Shown here: positions 1 to 26,160 of the stretch, piece after piece
How the letters are laid out: the number at the start of each line of letters is the position of its first letter
How positions within the stretch are numbered: the first letter of the stretch is position 1
Origin: a virus
Direction: 5' to 3' (one strand)
IMG/VR virus record: IMGVR_UViG_3300036791_000625
Span: 1-26,160 of that record
DNA: 26,160 bases
Notes under the pieces: generated by a model
The model's input: the letters and a program-made list of their open reading frames with translations, nothing else
Database searches by the model: none
What the model was told of the DNA's origin: nothing
Made by a program: the position numbers and the translations under genes

Positions 1-127
1 TCGGCCACGACCCGCAGCGGGACGCCGCCCGTGAGCATGGAGCTCGCCGCATAGTGGCGCAGGTCATGGAGGCCCTGGGACTTGACGCCGGCGGCCCGGG
101 TGGCCTTGGTCCAGGCGTGCGACGGCC
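1..127. repeat. Contig-end overlap, left copy
   Basis: This segment is identical to 26034-26160. It lies inside the integrase gene, which reads in frame across the join, so the two copies are one locus in a circular molecule of 26,033 bp. The length, 127 bp, equals a k-mer size often used by short-read assemblers. That makes an assembly overlap of a circular template more likely than a biological terminal repeat. Confidence 0.95.
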
Positions 128-1034
128 AGCCCAGATCCCAGTGCGTCTCGCCGCCGTCGGCCGAGAACACGAACAGGTCGTCGAAACGGGCGGCCAGGCC
201 GAGGGCGAGCGCCGTTTCGAGTGCCCGCTTACGGTGCTCGCGCAGGGCGTCGAGGGCCGGGCCGGCCAGGTGGCAGGCGTAGGCGCGCTTGGCCTTGGTC
301 TCTTTTTCGACCTCCACGTTGTCGCCGTCGATGGTGATGGCGCGGGAAAACACGACCGTGCCGGCGTCCAGGTCGACGTTGCGCCAGCGGAGCGCGACCA
401 CTGTCCCGCGCCGGGCACCGGTGTCGGCGGCGAGGCGCATATAGGCCCGCACGGCGTCGCTGGCGGCCGCCTCGAGCACTCGGCCGAGCTCGGCCGTCGA
501 CAGTATGTGGGCGCGCTCGGGCGCCTGGCCGCCGGCCGCCACTACCCGGGTCATGGGGTTGCGCTTGAGGTCGCCCAGGCGTTCGGCGTCGTTCATGACG
601 GCGGCCACCACGCCGTGCCACCGGCGCCGGGTCGAAGCGGCCCGGCCATCGGCCTCCCACCCGGCGTACATATCCTCGACCTGGCGGGGCGTGATGGCGT
701 TGAGGTCGGTCCAGCCGATCACGGGCAGGATGTAGTGCTTCAGTTGGTACTCAGTCTCGCGGGTGGTCTTGGGCGACCAGCGGCCGCGGTTGCGGGCCAC
801 CCAACCGGCGGCTGTGCCGGCGAAGGTGCGGCCGTCGAGGCCGCCGGGCCAGTCCTCGTCGAGCTTGTCGGCGATCTCAACTTGCAACCGGGCCTCGGCC
901 AGCACGGCCGCCTTGTGCCCGGCGCGGTTGTTCGGCGCCTTGAAACTTCGGACGACGCGGTGACGGTCGTTGCGGTTGCCTTTGACGGTGGCGGTGATGC
1001 GCCAGCAGTCGCGGTCGGTGTCAAAACGGGCCAT
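1..1034 (-). CDS. int: Tyrosine integrase, N-terminal 344 residues (continues at 26160..25916)
   Basis: Site-specific tyrosine recombinase that would integrate the phage at a host tRNA gene. The ATG is at 1034 and the frame runs off position 1, resuming in the right-hand copy to give a 383-aa protein. An N-terminal arm-binding region (about residues 1-70) is followed by an SAM-like core-binding domain (about 70-165) and the catalytic domain. Visible catalytic residues are Arg208 in TGARRG, a Lys near 247 in the KETKAKR segment, and His323/Arg326 in HDLRH; the tyrosine lies in the other fragment. The gene sits next to attP and reads away from it, the usual arrangement. It is split only by the arbitrary opening of the circle. 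Confidence 0.95.
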   Translation of the reverse strand, partial: MARFDTDRDCWRITATVKGNRNDRHRVVRSFKAPNNRAGHKAAVLAEARLQVEIADKLDEDWPGGLDGRTFAGTAAGWVARNRGRWSPKTTRETEYQLKHYILPVIGWTDLNAITPRQVEDMYAGWEADGRAASTRRRWHGVVAAVMNDAERLGDLKRNPMTRVVAAGGQAPERAHILSTAELGRVLEAAASDAVRAYMRLAADTGARRGTVVALRWRNVDLDAGTVVFSRAITIDGDNVEVEKETKAKRAYACHLAGPALDALREHRKRALETALALGLAARFDDLFVFSADGGETHWDLGWPSHAWTKATRAAGVKSQGLHDLRHYAASSMLTGGVPLRVVA

Positions 1035-18435: not shown

Positions 18436-18738
18436 CTAGGTGTCCGCGGTGTCGCTAGTGCTGGGCTTGGCGAGCTCGGCGAAGAGGGCTTCGAGGGTGT
18501 CGGGCGCCTTGGCCTGGCCGGCGGTGAGGCCGGCGCTTTCACGGAGCTCGAGATAGCCACGGTTGGCAACGGTTATGAGCTCGGGGTCACAGGCCGTCTC
18601 GGCCAGGTCGACGGCGTGGGCCTGGGCCCGGAGGGCGGCCCGCTCACCGGGGCCGATGTCGCGCCGCTCGGATAGGTCCCGCTCGAGCGCCCGTTCGACC
18701 CGGCGCCTATCGCGGGTATCTCGTCGCCTTTCACTCAC
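18436..18738 (-). CDS. terS: Terminase small subunit-like protein
   Basis: A 100-aa protein from GTG 18738. The N-terminus is strongly basic (SERRRDTRDRRRVERALERDL) and the rest helical and acidic, ending in a loose STSDTADT tail. This fits a small terminase that recognises phage DNA and loads TerL. Place between HNH and TerL is the typical one. The first ATG is absent and the upstream ribosome-binding site is weak, so translation may be coupled to something upstream or low. Confidence 0.72.
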   Translation of the reverse strand: MSERRRDTRDRRRVERALERDLSERRDIGPGERAALRAQAHAVDLAETACDPELITVANRGYLELRESAGLTAGQAKAPDTLEALFAELAKPSTSDTADT

Positions 18739-18977
18739 CGATCAAAGCCACTCGGGGCCGACCAGGCCGGATCCGGCGGATCCCGAAAGAAAAACACAAA
18801 AGCGTTCGGGGTGGAAAAGATTTTTTCTCCCAAAAAATGGTGGTCATTTTCCACACTTTTTGCCAACTTTCAACTTTCCAACTTTTCCAACCTTGAACTT
18901 GAAAGTTTCAGTTTCAAATTTCAAATTTGCCAGCGCTAGCCGCGCCGGTGGCGCGGCGCCGACGCGCGGAGCGCGGG
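18739..18977 (-). promoter_or_regulatory. AT-rich repeat block upstream of terS (cos/pac/promoter candidate)
   Basis: This 239-bp gap is far richer in A and T than its surroundings. It holds near-tandem copies of CAACTTT(C) at about 18863-18890, TTTCAA/TTGAAA inverted elements, a 15-bp palindrome CAAATTTCAAATTTG at 18915-18929, a TGAAA-G-TTTCA element at 18900-18910, and a 12-bp perfect palindrome GCCGGATCCGGC at 18766-18777, 28 bp before terS. It may be the packaging start (cos or pac), the late promoter, or an origin. No coding potential is evident. Function is an inference from position and composition. Confidence 0.55.
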
Positions 18978-23180: not shown

Positions 23181-23299
23181 CGCGGCGGCGCCGTTTCGTC
23201 GGCGAGCTCCGCGGGCCAGGTTGAAGGGCCGACCGCCGATGGCGAGGGCACCGAACCACTCTCCGAAGGAACGGCCGGCCCGTACTCAAAACTAGTCAT
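23177..23299 (-). CDS. 40-aa Pro/Ser-rich micro-ORF
   Basis: ATG 23299 shares ATGA with the recT stop, and the ORF's own stop shares ATGA with the next gene, so it fits exactly between them. The peptide (starts MTSFEYGPAVPSESG) is acidic, Pro/Ser-rich and probably disordered. Its reality rests on the overlaps. It may be a real micro-protein or a bridge that lets ribosomes reach the next gene. Confidence 0.5.
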   Translation of the reverse strand: MTSFEYGPAVPSESGSVPSPSAVGPSTWPAELADETAPPR

Positions 23300-24066
23300 C
23301 CTTGCGCCTCCGGCAGGTTGTCGTACACCTCGAGCGGTACTTCGTCTCGCCGGCGCCGCCGCTCGACCGGCCGGCGGGGACCGGGAACAACGGCGCCGGC
23401 GGCCGAGGCCGGTGCCGGCCTCGGGATCTCTCCGGTGTCCGGGTTGGCCTCGGCGATGAGGGCGGCGTCGTCGGCGTCGACGGGGGCGTCACCGGGCCAG
23501 GCGTTGCCATAGCTCACGGCCTCGGCCACCTCCGGGAAGGCGCGCCGCAGGGCCAGCGACTCGGCCACTTTGCCGATCATGTGCGAAGGCATGGCCTGCC
23601 ACGTCGGCATGAGCTCGCCGTCTTTCTTGGCCTGGGCGAACTCGGTCCACTTGACGGTGCCGTTGGCCGGGTGGTCCCAACCGTCGACCGAGACCAGGCA
23701 GCGGGCGGCATAGGGGAAGTCCTTGTCGTTGTCCCACACCTCGAGCCACTCGAGCTCGCCGGCCTCGTTGCGCGGCCCGCACCACACCGGGCCGTCGATG
23801 CCGCGGAGGCGCCCGGTGCGAAAGGCGATAGCGCGTCGCCCGGCCACCGTCACCTGGTGCCGGTAGACCATGCGACCGAGCTCTTTGTCCCACCGGCCGA
23901 TCAGGCATATCTGGCCGGCGAAGGGGTCGAGCTCGAGGTGTACGGCCACGGCGGCGAACACGCGCAGCTCGTTGGTCGAGGCCTTTGGGGCGATGAGGTC
24001 TTTTACGGCCTGCAGGTCGTCGGTCAGGCGGGTGACCTGGAGGCGCTCGAGCTCGGCCATGGTCAC
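23296..24066 (-). CDS. recT: RecT/Bet-family single-strand annealing protein
   Basis: A recombinase of about 255 aa that would anneal single strands during replication or recombination. Motifs in order: STNELRVFAAVAVHLELDPFAGQICLIGRW, RHQVTVAGRRAIAFRTGRLRGIDGPVWCGP and MPSHMIGKVAESLALRRAFPEV, the RecT/Bet core. The C-terminal 60 residues are Pro/Arg-rich. GTG 24066 (GTGA overlap with the preceding micro-ORF) and ATG 24060 are two residues apart. No exonuclease partner (RecE-like) is visible, so it may work with host nucleases. Confidence 0.9.
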   Translation of the reverse strand: MTMAELERLQVTRLTDDLQAVKDLIAPKASTNELRVFAAVAVHLELDPFAGQICLIGRWDKELGRMVYRHQVTVAGRRAIAFRTGRLRGIDGPVWCGPRNEAGELEWLEVWDNDKDFPYAARCLVSVDGWDHPANGTVKWTEFAQAKKDGELMPTWQAMPSHMIGKVAESLALRRAFPEVAEAVSYGNAWPGDAPVDADDAALIAEANPDTGEIPRPAPASAAGAVVPGPRRPVERRRRRDEVPLEVYDNLPEAQG

Positions 24067-24146
24067 CGGTAGGCCCGCACCAGCAGGGCCAGGGTCACGC
24101 CCAGGCAAACGCACAACACGATGTAGGCGATCGTCAGGGCACTCAC
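24063..24146 (-). CDS. 27-aa single-span membrane peptide
   Basis: GTG 24146 shares GTGA with the upstream stop; the ORF ends sharing GTGA with the recT GTG start. Residues 3-24 are hydrophobic (ALTIAYIVLCVCLGVTLALL) with a basic end. Like the 22661-22753 peptide it is one helix long, with overlaps at both ends. Function unknown. Confidence 0.55.
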   Translation of the reverse strand: MSALTIAYIVLCVCLGVTLALLVRAYR

Positions 24147-24406
24147 GAGGCCTTGCCTTCCAGGTACTCGGCCAGCACGACGGCCGATATGCGGGTGGGC
24201 GACAGATGGGGCACGGTGGCCAGGTGGCCCTCGTGGATGAGCTTGCGCACGGTGGGCTCGGTGACGCCCAGGCGGTCGGCGACCTCGGCCACCGAGTAGG
24301 CGCGCGGGCCGCCCATTTTGGCCAGGTCGTCGAGGACGCCAGGTAGGGCGTTGCGCAGGGCCTCGCCTATGGCCCGCTCGATCAGGTCGACCGGGCCGGT
24401 GCTCAC
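24143..24406 (-). CDS. Xis-like helix-turn-helix protein
   Basis: An 87-aa protein from GTG 24406, sharing GTGA with the upstream gene. Residues 37-85 contain an excisionase-type HTH: AYSVAEVADRLGVTEPTVRKLIHEGHL then RISAVVLAEYLE. The first 35 residues are an amphipathic helix. Second position in the early operon and attP nearby on the circle fit an excisionase or early regulator. Either is possible. Confidence 0.82.
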   Translation of the reverse strand: MSTGPVDLIERAIGEALRNALPGVLDDLAKMGGPRAYSVAEVADRLGVTEPTVRKLIHEGHLATVPHLSPTRISAVVLAEYLEGKAS

Positions 24407-24672
24407 GCCGGCCTGAGCAGCGCTCGGTTGGCCTCGACGGCCGCCTCGTACTCGGCGAACAGGACCACCTCGTCGACGCCGTAGAGGGCGGCCAACGTGG
24501 CCCGGGCCTCGGCCTCGGTCGGGAACGAGAAGCCCTTTTCCCACTTCTGCACGCTGTTGATGTGCACGCCGCAGGCCCGGGCGACCTGGGGTTGGCTAAG
24601 GCCGGCGTTGTCGCGGGCCGCCGTCAGCCGCATCCCTATGCGCGCCTTGTCGATGGGGGACAGTCGGATCAT
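24403..24672 (-). CDS. Cro/XRE-like regulator
   Basis: An 89-aa protein from ATG 24672, first gene of the leftward early operon. Residues 12-60 are an XRE-type HTH: IGMRLTAARDNAGLSQPQVARACGVHINSVQKWEKGFSFP. The C-terminus is helical. It lies divergent from the plus-strand repressor candidate, which is the classical Cro/CI layout, so it likely represses that gene at the shared operator and favours lysis. Confidence 0.85.
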   Translation of the reverse strand: MIRLSPIDKARIGMRLTAARDNAGLSQPQVARACGVHINSVQKWEKGFSFPTEAEARATLAALYGVDEVVLFAEYEAAVEANRALLRPA

Positions 24673-24739
24673 GGCAGTGATCTAGCGCACGGTGTTGGAG
24701 CATGTACAAGGTGTGACCAGTGTGTGTACGGTAGGTGGT
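24673..24739. promoter_or_regulatory. Divergent control region between cro-like and repressor genes
   Basis: This spacer runs from the cro-like start to a short plus-strand leader ORF (24740-24802). TGTAC occurs at 24703-24707 and 24725-24729, 22 bp apart (two helical turns), a plausible pair of operator half-sites. Weak promoter-like hexamers occur on both strands, but none is convincing. The 20-aa leader ORF overlaps the repressor GTG start and may only be chance. Confidence 0.5.
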
Positions 24740-24791
24740 ATGTCGCTGACCTGGAGCCGCGCACAAGTTCTTCACCTGGTCTGCACGTCGC

Positions 24792-25445
24792 GTGTTACCT
24801 AAAAGGCAACATGAGCTGGCCGAGGCCCTGTACCGGGAACCGGGGATCATGGTCGACCCGCTGGTGACGTGCCAGGTGGTGGCCGAAACCTTGGGGGGGG
24901 GGGGGGACTGGGAGCGCGTAACCCGGGCCGAGCTAACCGAGCTCGTCGCCGAGGCCAACGCCCACATCCCGCTGCGGCCCACCCACGACTACCCCGAGGG
25001 CTGGAAATGGTCGGTGGGCGGTTCGCTGCTGGTCTGGCAGGACTACCTGGCCGGCCGGCCCCTGAGCGTTACCCGTCTAACCCTGACTATCCGCAGTGTC
25101 GTCGCCGTACACCACTGGCACCTGCGCAACGAGGGCGTCGACGCGTTCGCCGAGGTGCGCGCCCGCTGGCTGTGGGCCCACGCCCGGTTACTGGCCGCCA
25201 CCGTACCCCAACCGTGGGAGCGCGAGTTACTCGGCCAACCGAACGGCCAACCGGTGCGGGCCGGGCCGGGCCTGGTACTGCGCAACCAGCTGGCGCACTA
25301 CCACTTGACCGAGGCCGAGGTCGCCGCCCGGGTCGGCGTGTCGCCGTCGACGATGTCGCGGTGGGCGGCCGGCACCCGGCGGCCGAGCGCCGAGCACCGC
25401 CAGGCCTTGGCCCGCGAGCTCGGCGGCCAGGCCGGCGACTACTGA
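24792..25445 (+). CDS. Immunity repressor candidate with C-terminal HTH
   Basis: A 217-aa protein from GTG 24792; ATG 24849 is an internal alternative. The C-terminal part has a helix-turn-helix: HLTEAEVAARVGVSPSTMSRWAAGTRRPSAEHRQALARELG (about residues 168-208). The N-terminal region begins RQHELAEALYREPG and may be winged-helix, and the middle is aromatic (GWKWSVGGSLLVWQDYLAG). It is the only plus-strand gene in the control region and opposes the cro-like gene, so a lysogeny repressor is likely. HTH at the C-terminus is not the usual CI arrangement. A G14 run at 24893-24906 encodes GGGG after VVAETL, so the frame depends on its exact length. Confidence 0.75.
   Translation: MLPKRQHELAEALYREPGIMVDPLVTCQVVAETLGGGGDWERVTRAELTELVAEANAHIPLRPTHDYPEGWKWSVGGSLLVWQDYLAGRPLSVTRLTLTIRSVVAVHHWHLRNEGVDAFAEVRARWLWAHARLLAATVPQPWERELLGQPNGQPVRAGPGLVLRNQLAHYHLTEAEVAARVGVSPSTMSRWAAGTRRPSAEHRQALARELGGQAGDY
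24893..24906 (+). repeat. G14 homopolymer in the repressor gene
   Basis: Fourteen consecutive G residues lie about 100 bp into the repressor frame. At 14 the frame is open; 13 or 15 would shift it and remove the HTH domain. Such long tracts slip during replication and are classic phase-variation elements, but they are also error-prone in assembly. This is seen directly; the switch is inferred. Confidence 0.9.
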
Positions 25446-25852
25446 GCGTTCACCTGCTCGACCTTCATGCTCACGTGGCCGGGGGTGAGACGGTTGAGGT
25501 CAGCGCTGATGGTCCAAAAGCAGTTGTGCGAGCTCTCAGGTACGACCTTGGTGGCCGGGCCCGGGAAGGTCACTGTGTGCGTACTGAAACTGGAGCTAAA
25601 ACCGGACGCGCACCCGCCGGCCCAGGACACGTCGACCGGCTGGCGAGGTGAGTCAGTGACGACGACGATGATCGGTTGGGCGTTGTGAGTGGTCACGCTC
25701 ACGGTGACGGTGGCAAACACGCCCGAACTACTTTGAGCGGCGAGCACGTGCGGCACGGTCGTCGCCGACGCAGTAGCGGCGTTGGCAAAGGCGGGAATGG
25801 CTACGGCGGCGGCGGCCAGGGCCAGGCCAGCCAAATGGCGGGTGAACCTCAT
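25439..25852 (-). CDS. Small secreted protein (lysogenic-conversion candidate)
   Basis: A 137-aa protein from ATG 25852, with a strong GAAGGAG site. The first 30 residues are a signal peptide: basic MRFTRH, hydrophobic LAGLALAAAAVAIP and a likely cleavage after AFANA. The mature part is beta-rich (FATVTVSVTTHNAQPIIVVVT) with only two cysteines (GGCASG, HNCFW), possibly one disulfide. It lies 63 bp downstream of int on the same strand and converges with the repressor, the 3' ends overlapping by 7 bp. This placement is typical of genes expressed in the lysogen. No family is recognised. Confidence 0.8.
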   Translation of the reverse strand: MRFTRHLAGLALAAAAVAIPAFANAATASATTVPHVLAAQSSSGVFATVTVSVTTHNAQPIIVVVTDSPRQPVDVSWAGGCASGFSSSFSTHTVTFPGPATKVVPESSHNCFWTISADLNRLTPGHVSMKVEQVNAQ

Positions 25853-25915
25853 TGTGATTTCTCCTTCGGAAATGGTCCGGTGTGTTGTAGTTATCGGCAC
25901 GCGGAGGCCGGGTTA

Positions 25916-26160
25916 TTAGGCCTGGGCCGAGCGATGTAGGGCGGCCATGACCTCGGCCGCCCGGGCGTCCTCGGTGCTCGGCGTATGGTGCGAGTAGGTG
26001 CGCAGGATGTTGGCCTCGGTGCAGCCCAGGCGCTCGGCCACGACCCGCAGCGGGACGCCGCCCGTGAGCATGGAGCTCGCCGCATAGTGGCGCAGGTCAT
26101 GGAGGCCCTGGGACTTGACGCCGGCGGCCCGGGTGGCCTTGGTCCAGGCGTGCGACGGCC
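25916..26160 (-). CDS. int: Tyrosine integrase, C-terminal part (completes 1..1034)
   Basis: The end of the integrase, with TAA at 25916-25918. It contains RHYAASSML, then RLGCTEANILRTYSHH with the catalytic Tyr358, and ends AALHRSAQA. The frame joins exactly to the fragment at 1..1034 to give 383 codons plus stop (1152 bp) after removing the 127-bp duplicate. No truncation is real. Confidence 0.93.
   Translation of the reverse strand, partial: PSHAWTKATRAAGVKSQGLHDLRHYAASSMLTGGVPLRVVAERLGCTEANILRTYSHHTPSTEDARAAEVMAALHRSAQA
26034..26160. repeat. Contig-end overlap, right copy
   Basis: Exact copy of 1-127. One copy should be removed to obtain the 26,033-bp circle. Confidence 0.95.

Follow-up and report, generated by a model that had tools for sequence, protein, structure and literature searches.

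We describe a run of 14 G residues within a gene that stands at the repressor position of a phage genome, and we tentatively interpret it, at somewhat short of an even chance, as a genuine hypermutable in-frame repeat whose slippage would switch the candidate immunity repressor and which would belong to a wider set of contingency tracts in related phages. Slipped-strand mispairing at mononucleotide tracts is an established mechanism. Provided that the assembly is right, high-frequency, reversible inactivation of the helix-turn-helix (HTH) gene is likely. A selected lysogeny switch is plausible.

Position, frame and rarity of the tract

Direct reading of the window (the whole stretch of DNA analysed, 26,160 nt) places the run in the assembly at exactly 24893-24906. 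The surrounding ORF of 217 aa (24792-25445, plus strand) includes ...VVAETLGGGGDWERVTRAEL..., and its codons read TTG GGG GGG GGG GGG GAC across the tract, in frame and early in the ORF. The features of this region are as follows.

24792-25445, plus strand: 217-aa HTH protein, candidate immunity repressor (ORF, codon usage, HTH_3 match, divergent from a Cro-like gene)
24893-24906, plus strand: G14 mononucleotide tract, codons 34-39, L-GGGG-D junction (direct reading)
25281-25424, plus strand: HTH_3 domain, residues 164-211 (Pfam HTH_3, E=7.6e-8; confident part of the structural model)
24673-24791, no strand: divergent intergenic region with putative promoters and operators (gene layout)
24403-24672, minus strand: 89-aa Cro/C1-type HTH gene heading the leftward early operon (HTH_31, E=3.9e-11)
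24143-24544, minus strand: excisionase-like HTH_17 gene (HTH_17, E=4e-9; PHROG excisionase)
23296-24114, minus strand: RecT-like annealing protein (Pfam RecT, PHROG 2780)

Under a first-order chain fitted to the window, 0.004 G runs of at least 14 and a further 0.001 C runs would be expected, about 0.005 together, and the longest of the other G/C runs in the window is 7. Because the measured extension rates are ~0.2 per step at lengths 5-6, the chance of a G14 is probably below the chain estimate. The gene thus contains a mononucleotide tract that exceeds the length expected by chance, as slipped-strand phase-variable genes do. GGG accounts for 14% of the Gly codons in this phage, so four consecutive GGG codons do not reflect codon preference. 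A codon-usage score trained on eight other ORFs of the window was +0.33 before the tract and +0.63 and +0.39 after it in the same frame, and was negative in the remaining plus-strand frames. Codon usage thus supports one coding frame on both sides, 14 being one of the lengths that keep the two coding segments in register. These results bear out a preliminary description of the sequence in its claims that the tract is very rare by chance and that it lies early in the frame.

The gene carrying the tract is a candidate immunity repressor

An immunity repressor is usually placed divergent from a Cro-like gene. The 217-aa gene encodes a DNA-binding HTH domain and diverges from the Cro/C1-type HTH gene, which is followed leftward in the early operon by the excisionase-like gene (true start probably near 24408) and RecT. 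Phage repressors are among the PHROG matches of the C-terminus of the protein. In the predicted structure the N-terminal region is helical at low confidence, the HTH alone being confident. The GTG start of the ORF is uncertain, in-frame alternatives including an ATG at 24849. A promoter scan and a repeat search of the divergent region (24673-24791) gave no promoter match and no inverted repeat, respectively, and a terminator scan gave nothing useful. By position this gene is the best candidate for the repressor, a role assigned from its location and its HTH, and the earlier claim that the tract lies inside the likely repressor gene holds in that sense.

None of the viral contigs, species genomes and GenBank phages searched contained a close homologue of the 217-aa protein. 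Searches gave HTH-level matches only, at E values up to 10, in phages and likewise in 4/396 genomes of a phylum sample. The one relative whose similarity extends past the HTH is an ORF of phage L082, with 26% identity over residues 66-217 and without the tract segment. The comparison of homologues at the tract that the preliminary description had proposed thus does not extend across it, the L082 alignment beginning at residue 66.

Between the candidate repressor and the integrase, the minus strand encodes a protein of 153 aa (25439-25900) with a signal-peptide-like N-terminus and no family match; it is possibly a lysogenic-conversion gene.

Predicted consequences of changes in tract length

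The computed products indicate that the HTH is kept at 11, 14 and 17 G. Tracts of 13 or 16 G give a stub of 42-43 aa (42 aa at 13 G, with one base lost), and tracts of 12 or 15 G give 285-286 aa of mostly out-of-frame product (286 aa with one gained). A change of a single unit thus alters the computed product, as expected for a phase-variable gene. The HTH lies downstream of the tract, and after a slip by anything but a multiple of three, translation from the annotated start no longer yields it, in agreement with the earlier claim that a one-base slip removes the DNA-binding domain. At 13 G a shorter ORF beginning at GTG 24869 enters the HTH frame, so this state may not be fully OFF.

Slippage by RNA polymerase or the ribosome, which long runs can cause, would yield several products from one genome with no genetic switching. 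The +1 frame past the tract is open to 25651, as this explanation would allow, yet codon scores in the other frames are negative and every one of the unrelated tract-bearing genes would need a useful second product. In three of the related loci described below (L043, L091 and L102), a slip of 1 or 2 bases is computed to destroy the product, and the shifted sequences are short or junk. We regard this explanation as highly improbable.

Genome structure and host

Window positions 1-127 are repeated exactly at 26034-26160, and the integrase gene is split over both ends of the record:

25891-26160, minus strand: C-terminal part of the integrase, continuing from 1-1034 (minus strand) over the circle junction (tblastn, junction translation)
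1-1034, minus strand: N-terminal part of the integrase (ORF, tblastn, junction translation)

Given the terminal repeat and the split integrase, the record probably represents a whole circular genome of ~26,033 bases. Terminase relatives in GenBank (899 records) are mostly phages of Mycobacterium, Arthrobacter, Gordonia, Microbacterium and other actinobacteria, from which the host is very likely an actinobacterium; judged by its terminase, this soil phage is very likely an actinobacteriophage, and we take it to be temperate. In species genomes the one match to the terminase, at 33%, was in Phycicoccus endophyticus, which belongs to the likely host phylum. Of 60 genomes drawn from that phylum, 39 lack any G run of at least 12 and a few have many. 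Two genomes of the phylum sample, G066 and G086, gave 393 and 174 overlapping matches to G12 or longer on both strands, most of the 60 giving none.

Many related contigs (L003, L006, L011, L012, L016, L023, L044, L063 and L079; equivalent to about 18700-18900 in the window) begin ~220-250 bases ahead of the terminase gene, and a T-rich or C8-C9 run is often present among their first ~15 bases. This shared start looks like a natural cos-like genome end, which the circular contig of the window would span.

Long tracts in related phages

As the 217-aa gene has no close copy, relatives were gathered by terminase instead, giving a sample of 80 related viral loci with further parts of their records (983,225 bases). 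G/C runs of 5, 6, 7, 8 and 9 numbered 1654, 342, 52, 24 and 9 in this sample; there were none of 10 or 11, one of 12, two of 15 and one of 16. The runs of 12-16 are a distinct long class. Runs of 8-9 occur in terminase, lysis and other genes, where runs of at least 12 never occur in this sample. Assignment of most of the 8-9 runs to the class of slippery tracts was rejected, since many lie ~5-50 nt from contig starts by the terminase and look like an end-proximal motif.

All four runs of at least 12 in the relatives are in frame and in genes of integration or recombination, and they come from four different metagenome records. Two of them, G15 in L091 and G16 in L094, occupy the same place in a PD-(D/E)XK exonuclease (Pfam PDDEXK_1, PHROG exonuclease), within an insertion of ~11 aa that includes non-Gly residues, is missing from homologues and directly precedes the conserved GTxDLLA...DWKT motifs. 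The two loci share 83-91% DNA identity, and GTT+G15 in one and GT+G16 in the other leave the phase identical. Comparison of the exonuclease with solved structures gave no match. The integrase of L102 has a G15 in the stretch joining its N-terminal domain to the central one, a region that is shorter in homologues; beyond the record of L102 itself, the integrase search found distant integrases only. In L043 a C12 spans codons 7-11 of a gene for an excisionase-like HTH_17 protein. A C9 is similarly placed in the excisionase-like gene of L098, and in L100 a C9 lies upstream of the probable start of such a gene. Searching with the neighbouring RecT and Cro-like genes added no further relatives of use.

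Taking the window and the relatives together, 5/5 tracts are in frame, which has a probability of ~1/240 if length is random with respect to frame. The placement of all the relatives' tracts in integration, regulation or recombination genes is a 1-4% event if such genes make up about one-third of the DNA, a share estimated from the layout of the window rather than over the sample, with L091 and L094 not independent of each other. The independent cases are few, at four loci including the window, and the window itself has a single tract-bearing gene. Neither chance nor an assembly slip accounts well for the repeated occurrence of in-frame tracts in relatives, which suggests that slippery lysogeny-module genes recur as a set in this phage group.

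We also considered whether the true tract is shorter or otherwise different, for example through poly-G read errors. An IMG/VR scan for G14 runs returned at least 120 stretches, so that uniqueness of the G14 to this phage was rejected; among the matches listed, the run is only near the end of the stretch in 74, as an artefact might produce, and inside it in 46. One contig from a relative, IMGVR_UViG_3300036846_000467 (L094 1-111; L030 start), ends one base before the exonuclease poly-C run, a break which shows that tracts hamper assembly, so exact tract lengths are uncertain. The two ends of this record share a 94-base overlap with one mismatch, a sign of strain variants or of trouble with the tract in assembly; this is compatible with mixed lengths, of which it is no proof. 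Several features speak against an artefact. The window tract is internal and keeps the reading frame of the coding sequence that flanks it, the frame is intact at each of the five tracts, and in both records that have the exonuclease tract the insertion around it is real and includes non-Gly residues. On balance an artefact is unlikely.

A possible contingency switch and its alternative

We propose that slipped-strand mispairing during replication would add or remove G residues in the tract of the HTH gene at the repressor position. Lengths of 14 (or 11 or 17) G would be ON, giving the full protein with its C-terminal HTH, and the remaining lengths would be OFF, giving a stub of 41-44 aa or a mostly out-of-frame product of ~285 aa from which the HTH is gone. 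OFF phages or prophages would be unable to maintain lysogeny and would act as lytic variants, until reverse slips bring back ON. The tract, its frame, the anatomy of the gene and the recurrence in relatives are observed; the slippage rate, the identity of the repressor, the phenotype and selection are the parts of this model that we infer. The G14 would be one of several contingency tracts kept in repressor, integrase, excisionase and exonuclease genes. That such tracts serve this phage group as contingency loci throughout its module of lysogeny and recombination genes, maintaining a standing and reversible mix of lysogenic genomes with obligately lytic or recombination-deficient ones, is a serious possibility about which we remain rather doubtful.

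Three published observations bear on how slippery such a tract would be. A G tract in pglX of Streptomyces coelicolor switches phage resistance at 10^-2 to 10^-4 (PMC4365076), NucS of M. smegmatis leaves 1-2 bp indels unrepaired (PMC11551767), and M. tuberculosis has many variable homopolymer tracts (PMC11898584). Given the switching of pglX and the blindness of NucS to indels, a tract of 14 G in a phage of such a host, assumed to be actinobacterial, should be strongly slippery.

The same slipperiness may operate with no selection for switching. A GGGG seed in a tolerant linker may have grown by slippage, with host repair ignoring indels; the tract would then mutate often, and the module would tolerate it since losing its functions is not lethal to the phage. 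The tracts lie in loops and linkers (the integrase linker, N-terminal tails and the exonuclease insertion), structural genes, where frameshifts would be lethal, are without tracts, and NucS offers a precedent, all of which would be expected of an unselected tract. However, tracts recur in four different genes of a single module although most of the sample consists of structural genes, and this recurrence, like the conserved exonuclease tract, fits selection at least equally well. That 5/5 tracts are in the ON frame would be expected alike of simple tolerance and of a switch caught mostly in its ON state. We consider an unselected tract a real contender, though one that we would not expect to prove correct.

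Comparison with known systems

The choice between lysis and lysogeny is normally explained by regulatory circuits, and simple-sequence phase variation is known from surface, metabolic and defence genes of hosts. If the proposed switch is real, this choice would have a genetic and stochastic component, inherited over generations but open to reversal, and the state of the switch would be readable from tract lengths in metagenome reads. Simple-sequence phase variation would also extend to lysogeny genes that belong to the phage itself, within hosts in which mismatch repair probably leaves indels uncorrected. Phase variation by G tracts is known, but we found no account of a phage that uses it in a repressor, integrase or excisionase of its own; the search covered open-licence literature and is hence weak evidence of absence.

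Some parallels come from bacterial chromosomes. Like the tract described here, that of S. coelicolor pglX is a G tract in a coding region of a high-GC actinobacterium, where loss or gain of G inactivates a phage-related function (PMC4365076); in contrast, pglX is a host defence gene with 8 G and measured switching, whereas here 14 G lie in the phage's own gene and the evidence is from sequence alone. The homopolymers of M. tuberculosis (glpK, the espR leader and others; PMC11898584) also undergo indels in a host group of the NucS type, but these are in chromosomal genes with variants shown experimentally, as opposed to a phage gene read from an assembly.

Among viruses, two loci, L162 (6688-6702) and L192 (5323-5337), have in-frame G14-15 tracts within virus-encoded C5 cytosine methyltransferases, which are possibly phase-variable phage methylases. 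They share with the window an in-frame poly-G tract in a viral gene and differ in that the gene concerned serves DNA modification in lower-GC viruses rather than the lysogeny module. The gin and cin inversions of Mu and P1 and the diversity-generating retroelement of BPP-1 vary tail fibre or receptor-binding genes. These systems are likewise heritable variation encoded by the phage, but they act through recombination or reverse transcription, whereas the variation proposed here would arise by homopolymer slippage in lysogeny genes.
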